This document shows positions 1,758 through 5,407 of a stretch of DNA of 5,407 nt, in pieces. The position numbers and the translations under genes are program-made. Below the pieces are notes generated by a model. The model worked only from the letters and a program-made list of their open reading frames with translations, did no database searches and was not told where the DNA came from. Origin of the DNA: Chloroflexota bacterium (GTDB lineage Bacteria; Chloroflexota; Limnocylindria; Limnocylindrales; CSP1-4); NCBI GenBank assembly GCA_021789355.1, contig JAJYJR010000439.1, positions 1-5,407 of the forward strand. The letters run 5' to 3'. Position 1 is the first letter of the stretch; each line of letters begins with the position of its first letter.

Positions 1758-1855
1758 TGGCCATCGAAACGGCAAACCCGTCGCGAGGCGGGGACGCAAA
1801 GCCACGGGACTCGGGACGCCCAATCCGACCGAGTCAGCCGGGTTGCCGACGACCA
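1758..1855 (+). ncRNA. Cyclic-di-GMP class I riboswitch aptamer (GEMM-I)
   Basis: Senses the second messenger c-di-GMP in the leader of the following gene. The strongly conserved core segments are present in order: GGCAAACC (1771-1778), GGGACGCAAAGCC (1791-1803, identical to the Vibrio cholerae Vc2 aptamer) and AGCCGGGTTGCCG (1836-1848). The first arm pairs CCCGTC (1777-1782) with GGCGGG (1787-1792) and is capped by a GCGA tetraloop of the GNRA type that docks in this class. The second arm is a perfect 7-bp stem, GACTCGG (1808-1814) with CCGAGTC (1829-1835). The closing stem pairs 1758-1766 with 1847-1855 at 7 of 9 positions. Aligned to Vc2, the ligand-contacting base G20 is G1771 and the intercalating A47 is A1798. 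G at position 20 favours c-di-GMP over 3',3'-cGAMP, whose riboswitches usually carry A there. Ligand preference is inferred from family knowledge. Confidence 0.93.
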
Positions 1856-1856
1856 C

Positions 1857-1877
1857 CGCGCTCCTTAGGGGAGCGCG
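1857..1877 (+). promoter_or_regulatory. Expression-platform hairpin between riboswitch and start codon
   Basis: CGCGCTCC (1857-1864) pairs perfectly over 8 bp with GGAGCGCG (1870-1877) around the loop TTAGG. It begins one base after the aptamer's closing stem. No T-run follows, so it is not a classic intrinsic terminator. The same left arm can instead pair with the ribosome binding site: GCGCTCCT (1858-1865) with AGGA-GCGC within 1894-1902, leaving G1898 bulged. Two exclusive structures of this kind suggest control of translation. Which one the ligand favours cannot be told from sequence. Confidence 0.6.
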
Positions 1878-1893
1878 AACCGCAGGAACCGGC

Positions 1894-1899
1894 AGGAGG
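1894..1899 (+). promoter_or_regulatory. Ribosome binding site of the riboswitch-controlled gene
   Basis: AGGAGG, 9 bases before the ATG at 1909. It fixes the start of the 149-residue protein, although the same frame stays open further upstream through the riboswitch. It is the pairing partner of the left arm of the 1857-1877 hairpin, so its access is probably the regulated step. Confidence 0.8.
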
Positions 1900-1908
1900 C
1901 GCCGAGAC

Positions 1909-2358
1909 ATGTCTGATCACCCCAGCACCCACCGCGCCGCGCGTGCGGCCGCACGCGCGAGCCTGATCGCCCTGCTCATCCTCACGGTCGGGTCCGGGAC
2001 CGCGCTGGCCGCCAAGGGTGGCGGAAGCGTGAGCAGCGCCAGCACGCTGACCGGGCCGGTCATGGTCCTGGACCTCAACGGCAACGGCGTGCCCAACCAC
2101 GGGGACGAGATCACGTTCAACGTCTCCGCCAGCGTGTCCCAGCCGCAGGTCGGGCTCCGCTGCTGGCAGGGAGCGAACTGGGTCTACGACGGCTACGTGG
2201 GCTACTTCCCCGGGTACATGTTCACGCCGTACTTCACGCTCGACTCCGGGTACTGGAATCCGGCCCTGAGCGCGAACTGCACCGCGCGGCTCTTCTACAA
2301 CGACAAGCGGGGTCGTCAGCAGGTGCTGGCCACCCTGAGCTTCGACGTCGCACCCTGA
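1909..2358 (+). CDS. Small secreted beta-rich protein with a calcium-binding-type loop, under c-di-GMP riboswitch control
   Basis: 149 residues; function unknown. Residues 1-34 form a typical Sec signal peptide: a basic region (HRAARAAARAS), a hydrophobic core (LIALLILTVGSG) and cleavage most likely after TALA. A Gly/Ser-rich linker (AKGGGSVSS) leads to a domain of about 105 residues. D55-L-N-G-N-G-V-P-N-H-G-D66-E67 matches the D-x-N-x-N-G...D/E pattern of EF-hand or dockerin-like calcium loops. The rest alternates like beta strands and is rich in Tyr, Trp and Phe (GLRCWQGANWVYDGYVGYFPGY); C85 and C124 could form a disulfide. It resembles small exported proteins with a GD-x-ITF-x-V start and a final TLSF-x-V strand that I recall from Chloroflexota and actinobacterial genomes, a memory and not a search result. 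There is no anchor or membrane segment after the signal peptide, so it is probably released or bound non-covalently. The start is set by AGGAGG at 1894-1899; the riboswitch implies a role in attachment or biofilm matrix, which is inference. Confidence 0.9.
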   Translation: MSDHPSTHRAARAAARASLIALLILTVGSGTALAAKGGGSVSSASTLTGPVMVLDLNGNGVPNHGDEITFNVSASVSQPQVGLRCWQGANWVYDGYVGYFPGYMFTPYFTLDSGYWNPALSANCTARLFYNDKRGRQQVLATLSFDVAP

Positions 2359-2457: not shown

Positions 2458-4953
2458 CTAGGGTGTCGGTGCCTCGTTGGCGATCGAGATGCTGGAAGTC
2501 TCGGTGCCGCACGGGCTCGTCACGCCCAGGTGGGCGGGATTGTCCGAGGTGAACACCACGACCCAGCTGAACGTTGTGCCGGTGGTGTCGTAGGCCGTCG
2601 TATTTGCGCTCGACACCGTGGCCTTGAGCGTGTTGCCCTTGCCGGTGTCCGGAGCGGCGACGGCGAGCGAGGTCGACGTGTAGGCCGGCTCGCTGCTGCA
2701 CGTGGCGTCGTTGACGTAGAGCTTGAACACGACGTGGCCGTTCAGGGCGCCCGCGCCGCCACCCACGCTGACGGTGGCGGAGTCGTTGGGCACGAAGCGC
2801 TGTGCCGTGCTCATGGTCGGCTGCAGCTGCTGGACGACGACGGCTTCGGCCGAGTTGCCGCAACCGGTGTTGTGGGTTGTTGCCTTCGTGTTGCCCGAGG
2901 TCGAGCCGCTGTATGCCGCGACCCAGTGGAACTGGCCCGGGCTGCTGGGGGTGAAGCCGGACGAGAAGTTGTCACCGTTGCCGGAGACCGTGCCACCGGT
3001 CTGCGGGTTGGTCCCCGTCGTGCCGTCCAGCTTCCCGGCATTCGCGGTGCTGCAGTTGGTGACCTTACCGTCCTTGTCGACCGTATCCGGGCCCTTCAGG
3101 GTGAAAGTGATGGTCCCGTCCGCGGCCGCGCCGTTGGTCGCGTTGATGGTCGGATACTGGCTGCCGGCTTGGCCCGGTGTCGTGCCGCCGTCCGTGCCGG
3201 GCTCGGTGGCCGTGCCGGACAGCGTCGCCTTGTCGTAGAGCGCGGTGCCGAACGGCACCGGATCCGTGAGCACCGATCCCTCCGAATCGCCCGTCGTCCA
3301 GGCGGTCGTGATCAGGGTCGGCTCGACCGGCAGCACCTCGAAGCACTCGCCGGTCGATGACGGCGGCCCGGCGGATTCACCGCTGCTGTCGGTCGCATCA
3401 GGCACGCCCTTCGTCGTCGAATCGAAATCGGCGCGCCAGCAGTACCGTCCGATCGACGTGAGCGTGACCGGATCCGAGAGGTAGGTGCCGTTCCCGGTGA
3501 CCGGGATGGAACCCGCCGCCACGCCGCCGGTGCTGCACGTGCCGCTGGCGAGCGGGCCGCAAACGTTAAACGAAAGCGTCCCGGTGAAGGACGCGGTACC
3601 CGTGACCTCCAGGAGGGCAGAGTCCTCGACGCTCACCGTCCCGGTCCCGATCGACGTCTCGACGAGGTTGTTGGCGTTGCTGTCCGCCGAGAGGGCGGAG
3701 CCGTTCCCAAGCTTGGGCGTCGTCTCCAGGCCGGAGCCGCACGACTCGAACTTGCCGAGCGCGAAGTCCTTCTGAGCGGCCGTGAGCGACGGCGACGAGC
3801 GGGTCTCGGCCATGAAGCTGGCGAAGCAACCCTGGAGGCCGAGCGCGTTCAGGTCGACGCCGCCCTCCATGAAGCCGCCGCCGTAGATGACGTCCGAGGC
3901 GACCGCGCCCTTGCCGACGTACGCCCAGGGCGAGACGATCGTCGTGTTGTTGACGGTGTTGCAGCCCGAGCTGCTGCCGCCCGGCACGCAGTCGCCGAAA
4001 TTGCCCTCGCCGTTGAGGGAACCATCGCTGCCGTCCGAGCCCACCCAGCTGTAGATCCGGATGGTGGTGATCGCGCCACCCTGCGTGAACGTGCCGAGCA
4101 GCAGGATGTCCCCGACTGCGTGCGTGGCCGGGTTGCCTTCGTCATCGACGAACGTCCCGTTAGGCGCGGCGACTACAGAGTTCTTGAAGAACCAGAAGCC
4201 CATGTCCTTCGCGCCGTTGACCGCGTAGCGATCGGCGCCGAAGTAGAGGTACTGCTGCGTCTCCCCGAACTTGATCGCGTAGGCGTGCAGGATCTCGTCC
4301 GCGTCAGGGACCGAGCTGTCCGTCCAGTGCTCGTCCGGCATGTCGAGGATGTCGGCCGAGCCCTGCGTGAACATCGAGGTCCCCGGCGTGTCGTCGATCC
4401 AGTCGCACGCGACCGCCCCCGGGATTCCGGAGCACGGGTTGTCGGCACTCGCGTTGGCCTGGTGAGCTGTGTAGACGATATCCCAGTCAGCCCCGGCCGG
4501 TGCCCCGCCCCCCAGCTGGGTGATGTCCGAGCCGCCCGGATGCGCGGTCGCAGATGCGCCTCGCACCACCGTGTAGGTCCTGACGTCCAGCGCGACGAGC
4601 GCGGGGTCCGTGAAGGAGCACCCGCCCGTCTTGGTGGAGGTCGTGCCTGCGCTCTTGAACGTCATCTGCTCGCCGTCGATCAGGAGCGTCGAGTCGGCTG
4701 CAGGGGCGCCGACCAACTCGCACACGTCGATGGTGGTCGTCGACGCGTTGATGTTGCCCTTCAGCGTGCCGACGTGGGTGGTGGTGACGTCGTTGGATGC
4801 GTTCTTGTCGAGCTCGAACAGGCCGCTGCCCTCGGGTGGCGATGCCACGGCCGTGGCGGCGATGCCGATCGTCCCGACGATCAGGCCGGCGGCGGCGAGG
4901 ACCGTGGCGACGCGCCTGCCCGGCTGCTTTCGATAGACCACACGACTGATCAC
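2458..4953 (-). CDS. Large exported multidomain protein with C-terminal Ig-like repeats
   Basis: 831 residues; exact function unknown. Residues 1-38 are a signal peptide (basic YRKQPGRR, hydrophobic VATVLAAAGLIVGTIGIAA, cleavage likely after TAVA). FELDKNASND (46-55) looks like the first strand of the main domain. Residues about 61-147 look like an inserted module (TLKGNINASTTTIDV... LLIDGEQMTF... YTVVRG... AHPGGSDIT). The main domain follows at about 155-405, with DWDIVY, LYFGADRYAVNGAKDMGFWFF, GDILLLGTFTQGG, IRIYSWVGSDGSDGSLNG, FMEGGVDLNALGL and CFASFMAETRSSPSLTAAQKDFALGKFESC; I recognise this pattern from large secreted surface proteins of several phyla but cannot name a domain entry. About three Ig-like beta-sandwich units follow (roughly 438-540, 543-708, 710-825), each with a strand like TLSFNV, TITFTL or VVFKLY, then a W/F-x-W core strand and cysteines. 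No sorting motif or C-terminal membrane segment is seen. The start is GTG with GAGGGGGG 8 bases upstream; the frame closes at a stop at 4981-4983, leaving no better start. Confidence 0.92.
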   Translation of the reverse strand: MISRVVYRKQPGRRVATVLAAAGLIVGTIGIAATAVASPPEGSGLFELDKNASNDVTTTHVGTLKGNINASTTTIDVCELVGAPAADSTLLIDGEQMTFKSAGTTSTKTGGCSFTDPALVALDVRTYTVVRGASATAHPGGSDITQLGGGAPAGADWDIVYTAHQANASADNPCSGIPGAVACDWIDDTPGTSMFTQGSADILDMPDEHWTDSSVPDADEILHAYAIKFGETQQYLYFGADRYAVNGAKDMGFWFFKNSVVAAPNGTFVDDEGNPATHAVGDILLLGTFTQGGAITTIRIYSWVGSDGSDGSLNGEGNFGDCVPGGSSSGCNTVNNTTIVSPWAYVGKGAVASDVIYGGGFMEGGVDLNALGLQGCFASFMAETRSSPSLTAAQKDFALGKFESCGSGLETTPKLGNGSALSADSNANNLVETSIGTGTVSVEDSALLEVTGTASFTGTLSFNVCGPLASGTCSTGGVAAGSIPVTGNGTYLSDPVTLTSIGRYCWRADFDSTTKGVPDATDSSGESAGPPSSTGECFEVLPVEPTLITTAWTTGDSEGSVLTDPVPFGTALYDKATLSGTATEPGTDGGTTPGQAGSQYPTINATNGAAADGTITFTLKGPDTVDKDGKVTNCSTANAGKLDGTTGTNPQTGGTVSGNGDNFSSGFTPSSPGQFHWVAAYSGSTSGNTKATTHNTGCGNSAEAVVVQQLQPTMSTAQRFVPNDSATVSVGGGAGALNGHVVFKLYVNDATCSSEPAYTSTSLAVAAPDTGKGNTLKATVSSANTTAYDTTGTTFSWVVVFTSDNPAHLGVTSPCGTETSSISIANEAPTP

Positions 4954-5246: not shown

Positions 5247-5293
5247 GCCCGTCCGGCCCCGTGGGACCGCGGACTGGAGAGCCGGGTGTCGAC

Positions 5294-5339
5294 GCCGGGT
5301 GAAAACTGAGCACCTTCCGCCGGTCGAAACCTGAGCACC
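5294..5339 (+). repeat. Two tandem 21-bp terminal repeats
   Basis: Copies at 5294-5314 and 5319-5339 differ at three positions (GT/TC at positions 6-7 and A/C at 12) and share the ending CTGAGCACC. They are separated by TTCC. They are probably transposase binding sites of the element that continues to the right. Confidence 0.8.
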
Positions 5340-5387
5340 CCTGACCAGGTTCGCTGGCATCCTCGGCCGAGCCGTGAGCTCGCTGCC

Positions 5388-5407
5388 GAGGAGGAAGGAG
5401 TGCATCA
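5388..5407 (+). promoter_or_regulatory. Ribosome binding site and possible gene start at the window edge
   Basis: GAGGAGGAAGGAG at 5388-5400 is a very strong ribosome binding site. GTG at 5400-5402 lies 5 bases after AGGAGG (5389-5394) and could be the start. The final A of the window could equally be the first base of an ATG with AAGGAG 6 bases upstream. No coding sequence can be read, so the gene is inferred. Confidence 0.4.

Follow-up and report, generated by a model that had tools for sequence, protein, structure and literature searches.

The 5,407-nucleotide (nt) contig JAJYJR010000439.1, from a Chloroflexota bacterium (assembly GCA_021789355.1), was analysed over its whole length, referred to here as the window. 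It carries, on the forward strand, a cyclic di-GMP (c-di-GMP) riboswitch followed by one small gene. The aptamer lies at 1762–1851 and is followed by a predicted leader hairpin (CGCGCUCCU-UAG-GGGAGCGCG, 1857–1877), a Shine-Dalgarno (SD) site (AGGAGG, 1894–1899) and the gene of a 149-residue protein (1909–2358), all on the plus strand. The open reading frame (ORF) encodes a hydrophobic N-terminus, a Gly-rich linker and a domain predicted to resemble immunoglobulin (Ig) and fibronectin type III (FnIII) folds. A second, large gene (2458–4953, minus strand) converges on it.

We scanned the whole window with cmscan against Rfam 15. One match was listed above its gathering score, namely to the c-di-GMP-I-GGC family (RF03167), which was reportedly described by Weinberg in 2017. 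The match, at 1762–1851 (+), reaches 65.8 bits (gathering score 59; E 2.1e-14) and covers the full model (positions 1–80 of 80). A lower-scoring match of the same clan, for which the family was not given, also passed, and two other Rfam families detected in the window at E up to 1 score far under their gathering scores. The original prediction had proposed a covariance check with RF01051; the score does clear its threshold, with RF03167 rather than RF01051 as the best family. The near-textbook core that had been described is present in each of its parts: GGGACGCAAAGCC, read from the sequence at 1791–1803; the GNRA loop GCGA (1783–1786), which caps the P2 arm; and G1771 at the ligand-selecting position. 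Mapped by eye, residues G20, A47 and C92 of the Vc2 aptamer correspond to G1771, A1798 and C1846, and the interhelical pair corresponds to C1795–G1837. In Vc2, G20, A47 and C92 contact the ligand, and an interhelical pair is also described, according to excerpts of PMC4744006. We conclude that 1762–1851 is a genuine, well-supported riboswitch of a known family, whose RNA would be expected from its bases to bind c-di-GMP.

A gap of 57 nt separates the aptamer from the start codon (ATG at 1909) of a coding gene in the same orientation. Because the next gene is convergent, only 1909–2358 can be driven by the riboswitch, as had been claimed. The N-terminus of the 149-residue protein is hydrophobic and ends in TALA-A, which reads by eye as a signal peptide, and the protein is accordingly predicted to be exported. 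Residues 43–149 are predicted with confidence to form the Ig/FnIII-like domain, and two cysteines, C85 and C124, are invariant in the family, which suggests a disulfide between them. There are 213 further relatives in the protein database. Neither Pfam nor NCBIfam contains a family that matches the protein, so the earlier description of an uncharacterised effector under a known class of riboswitch stands.

To what extent the small gene and the riboswitch travel together was assessed in 177 genomes of the same class as G001, the nearest relative in the collection (G and L numbers are our handles for genomes and loci). Two family definitions were used. The closer family (A1) was found 23 times, in 20 genomes, and in 6 of these cases RF03167 lies directly upstream in the same orientation; the wider family (A2) occupies 37 places in 30 genomes, with RF03167 directly upstream at 16. 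These 16 riboswitches end 9–124 nt before the protein match. RF03167 itself was seen in 74 of the 177 genomes and exceeded the cut-off in 52. Rfam scans at E ≤ 0.5 of 20 loci around closer-family matches and of five further loci gave no riboswitch beyond those counted. In a 36-row tree in which 7 rows lack the riboswitch, absence is explained by two changes, one in G001 and one in a single genome group. One caveat here is that this tree was built quickly and leaves 15 of its 33 forks open. The pattern fits an old riboswitch–target link that would have been lost twice. The closer family was found in 5 of 400 genomes drawn from the phylum, all of which had already been counted in the class, so it looks confined to the class. 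A limited pattern scan of a named genome collection found the 149-residue family at one locus, L001 in G001 (JAICUY010000001.1), and a search of viral contigs found none. The NCBI label of L001, Steroidobacteraceae, is doubtful because the collection has only 177 genomes of its class.

Some relatives without the riboswitch have leaders of their own. At L010, L013, L018, L024 and L025, a conserved, possibly structured leader lies ∼160 nt upstream of the small gene, with the motif CGTTAG .. AACAACG .. TCCTGTGAAG and no Rfam match at E 0.5. At L013, an upstream CCTCCTATTCC is able to pair with the SD stretch GGAATAGGAGG. A second leader type precedes the gene at L007, L009 and L023. These leaders, known from 5 and 3 sequences only, are possibly another regulatory RNA that has taken over.

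Folding of 1751–1935 bears on how the riboswitch might act. Roughly half of the unconstrained ensemble pairs the SD site with 1814–1826, part of the P3 arm. The mean unpaired value of the SD site rises from 0.38 in the free state to 0.89 when the aptamer pairs are imposed, and a wider measure of SD exposure rises from 0.23 to 0.52. The window's own fold thus frees the SD site when the aptamer forms, which points to a translational ON switch. Where leaders are longer and the target has 100–180 residues (12 sites, the window included), a hairpin recurs that separates the aptamer from the SD site (mean z –1.73 versus shuffles). We ruled out the window's leader hairpin as an intrinsic terminator, since no T run follows it. 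A sigma-70 promoter and terminator scan of 1500–2500 found nothing.

The convergent gene, an ORF of 831 codons, encodes a predicted secreted protein with 379 matching proteins at E ≤ 0.001, itself included, and no Pfam or NCBIfam family. Its structural model (mean predicted local distance difference test score 85.6) shows a hydrophobic N-terminus followed by beta-sandwich domains in series. Among the 50 matches listed, a structure search gave only generic chains of Ig-like domains, with template modelling scores ≤ 0.25. The window and 17 of 18 testable closer-family genomes have a homologue of this protein convergent with the small gene, 78–435 nt away; two of the 17 are weak or incomplete matches (G007, E 3e-6; G139, E 6e-9), and G091 and G132 fall outside the count because the contig end was reached. 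Profile matches to the partner occur in 43 of the 177 genomes, and hence it is not confined to this pairing. Within the window, cmscan gave no riboswitch belonging to the large gene. Between the two genes, a GC-rich hairpin (2399–2426) looks terminator-like by eye, and many relatives have a similar one 3′ of the small gene, again by eye; a terminator scan requiring a T run did not call it.

Upstream of the aptamer, c-di-GMP enzymes recur. An EAL protein on the same strand ends 126–442 nt before the aptamer at 5 of the 16 riboswitch sites (G095, G099, G100, G101 and G103), and Pfam places a GGDEF domain in the same stretch in four of the five. In G095, the GGDEF match starts before the scanned piece, in the same frame as EAL. 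A GGDEF match ∼1 kb upstream in G105 was left uncounted, as no EAL frame could be read between. At other sites a different gene is found upstream, for example one encoding a metallo-beta-lactamase-fold protein (G088, G028) or a phosphoglucomutase-like protein (G066). Together, the convergent secreted beta-sandwich gene and the upstream GGDEF-EAL genes link this locus with c-di-GMP and with the cell surface. GGDEF domains were found in all 11 genomes checked (8–22 matches each), the window's own genome not being among them, and c-di-GMP is thus very likely made in those 11. In the window, the place upstream of the aptamer is occupied by an IS256-family element (209–1600), with a transposase gene at 265–1488 (–) and 31-nt imperfect inverted repeats (arms 209–239 and 1570–1600), the last of which ends ∼160 nt before the aptamer. 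For the right end of the window (5280–5407), a single weak match, to a plasmid, covers 30% of the query.

We also tabulated what else lies under RF03167, using 99 sites after dropping the seven weakest (under 36 bits) of 106. Downstream genes were filtered by a heuristic of our own (SD word, hydrophobic N-terminus, start within 185 nt), which misses microproteins; 51 of the 99 sites passed. The largest sequence cluster among the 51 products (n = 14) is the small exported family to which the window's target belongs. A Pfam scan of 20 of the 51, other than this family, gave hits that include S8 subtilases, GH16, GH5 cellulase-like, alginate-lyase-like, phosphoesterase, beta-helix and EAL proteins. 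The subtilase-like group comprises L038 and L076 (Pfam S8), L050 (clustering) and L094, L100, L113, L114 and L120 (resemblance). At six subtilase-type sites the upstream gene ends EAL-like by a regular expression, and Pfam confirmed GGDEF-EAL at L076.

Thirty of the 99 sites have ORFs of 24–45 codons within 230 nt whose product ends in G-x-[RK]-W, one ORF at 15 sites and two at 15 (e.g. L041, G029:C13; L043, G026:C155; L046, G090:C35). The same test in two control stretches gave 1/99 and 2/99. The products are mostly hydrophobic, such as MKANLARFTWALMLLASLALTVGAGMRWY, and a few look like out-of-frame readings. A literature search found no paper on riboswitch-linked microproteins with cyclic di-GMP. 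The picture is of a regulon in the class rich in secreted and membrane proteins.

Several features of the aptamers themselves vary. An A occupies the G20 position (AGCACACC or AGCACAGCC) in G024:C128, G007:C121:22397, G097:C1, G001:C31, G093:C20 and G025:C94; these A-type aptamers precede larger proteins, most of which have a W-D/N-G-x-R-W-like motif at their start. The P2 internal loop shows a recurring paired change, from GCAAACC..GGGACGC to GCACACC..GGGCCGC. Tandem RF03167 aptamers occur in other genomes of the phylum, among them G375:C4, G277:C1, G182:C1 and G396:C64, in which the two lie ∼77–86 nt apart.

What might this locus do? The reading we prefer, to which we give an even chance, is that of a c-di-GMP-I-GGC switch, probably ON and translational, controlling a protein of the surface or matrix that probably acts together with its convergent partner. 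C-di-GMP, a signal to settle, would bind the aptamer upstream of 1909–2358, and the bound form would likely turn on translation of the 149-residue protein; the cell would export this protein to its surface or matrix, where it would likely work with the large predicted secreted protein. Observed at the locus and in its relatives are the aptamer, the gene order, the recurring riboswitch–target link, the convergent partner and, in several relatives, GGDEF-EAL genes directly upstream. Fold, predicted export, partner and signal together suggest a role in attachment or matrix, and its likelihood is raised by the Ig/FnIII-like domain, the convergent beta-sandwich partner and the secreted-looking enzymes that lie under the same riboswitch elsewhere in the class.

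A number of results weigh against this reading. Across 47 sites, imposing the aptamer changed SD exposure by a mean of 0.048 with native leaders versus 0.037 with swapped leaders, and the native leader exceeded the swapped one at 21 of the 47. Leaders at 21 sites were not enriched in anti-SD pairing versus shuffles (mean z –0.17), and the whole leader of the window is not unusually stable by the same comparison (z –0.62). Because these platform tests showed no effect over the 47 and 21 sites, the case for ON comes from the fold of the window itself and from a precedent: the Vc1 riboswitch before gbpA regulates positively with no apparent terminator or anti-SD sequence, according to excerpts of PMC4744006. 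The original prediction had proposed counting the homologues that carry the riboswitch. It lies upstream at the 16 wider-family places, and none was found at the other 21, only two of which (G162 and G008:C54) are cut by the upstream contig end; G001 is also without a riboswitch upstream of its small gene. The protein is therefore not tied to c-di-GMP control everywhere. The partner is not beside the small gene in G099, the closer-family exception, and within the available DNA it is not adjacent in seven of eight testable further wider-family genomes (adjacent in G088; not in G095, G100, G066, G103, G008, G010 and G028). For G066 and G010, the contig does contain a partner match, on the opposite strand and about 2 kb and 3 kb downstream. 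Finally, Foldseek with the predicted structure of the 149-residue protein gave no match at E ≤ 0.001, and a lone Ig/FnIII-like fold, by itself, reveals no function.

The main rival to a translational ON switch is an OFF switch, in which the ligand-bound aptamer and the leader hairpin would block the ribosome or transcription and the protein would be made at low c-di-GMP, for dispersal. At several other sites in the class the SD lies directly behind P1, where a compact bound aptamer could block ribosomes, and over the 47 sites the SD is not consistently sequestered in the free state. The window's own fold, however, favours SD exposure upon aptamer formation, and the missing T run leaves no ordinary terminator through which the hairpin could act; we regard an OFF switch as rather unlikely. 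Held at much the same doubtful level is the idea that the 149-residue protein is a secreted cofactor, chaperone or processing partner of the large protein, with the riboswitch adjusting its dose and the large protein made independently. The two genes remain convergent neighbours even at loci lacking the riboswitch, which argues that their pairing predates c-di-GMP control or is more tightly constrained, and in the window no riboswitch was seen for the large gene. Yet the pair is non-adjacent in most further wider-family genomes, and any interaction of the two proteins is putative. The ligand might also be 3′,3′-cyclic GMP-AMP (cGAMP). We take A at the G20 position to be the cGAMP-type (GEMM-Ib) base; some RF03167 sites of the class do carry it, but the window has G1771, making cGAMP highly improbable here. 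GEMM-Ib riboswitches of Geobacter bind cGAMP, according to excerpts of PMC6456294.

Under the preferred reading, the locus would be a testable c-di-GMP output in environmental bacteria, with one RNA, one small protein and one conserved partner. The range of targets (small Ig-like proteins, subtilases, glycosidases and tandem microproteins) suggests that c-di-GMP here largely controls secreted and membrane output, and the target table provides many uncharacterised proteins with a known signal attached. A more speculative extension, which we consider improbable, is a c-di-GMP surface cassette: GGDEF-EAL proteins would set a local signal, the adjoining riboswitch would release the small Ig-like protein, and this would cap, anchor or polymerise the large partner, in an undescribed c-di-GMP-gated adhesion system of one class.

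How does the locus compare with known systems? The kind of riboswitch is already known, and the exported target is undescribed and apparently class-specific. A literature search found no paper joining a c-di-GMP riboswitch with a small secreted protein, nor one joining Limnocylindr- names with c-di-GMP. Relative to c-di-GMP-I-GGC, the window's aptamer is a full-length match over the gathering score with the same contact bases by eye; it differs in that its target family is outside Pfam and NCBIfam and its leader has an extra hairpin. The lone Ig/FnIII-like domain has an invariant cysteine pair of its own, unlike known domains of this kind; it shares 4–16% identity with FnIII of fibronectin and the Ig-like domain of GH2 enzymes, with no Foldseek match at the threshold above. 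The Vc1 riboswitch of gbpA in Vibrio cholerae likewise places a class I c-di-GMP aptamer before a secreted protein, with no ordinary terminator between. GbpA is a chitin-associated colonization factor; a search of PDB sequences with the 149-residue family did not bring it up at E ≤ 1. Experiments in vitro and in vivo exist for Vc1, whereas the function of the window RNA is predicted (for Vc1 and GbpA, excerpts of PMC4744006).
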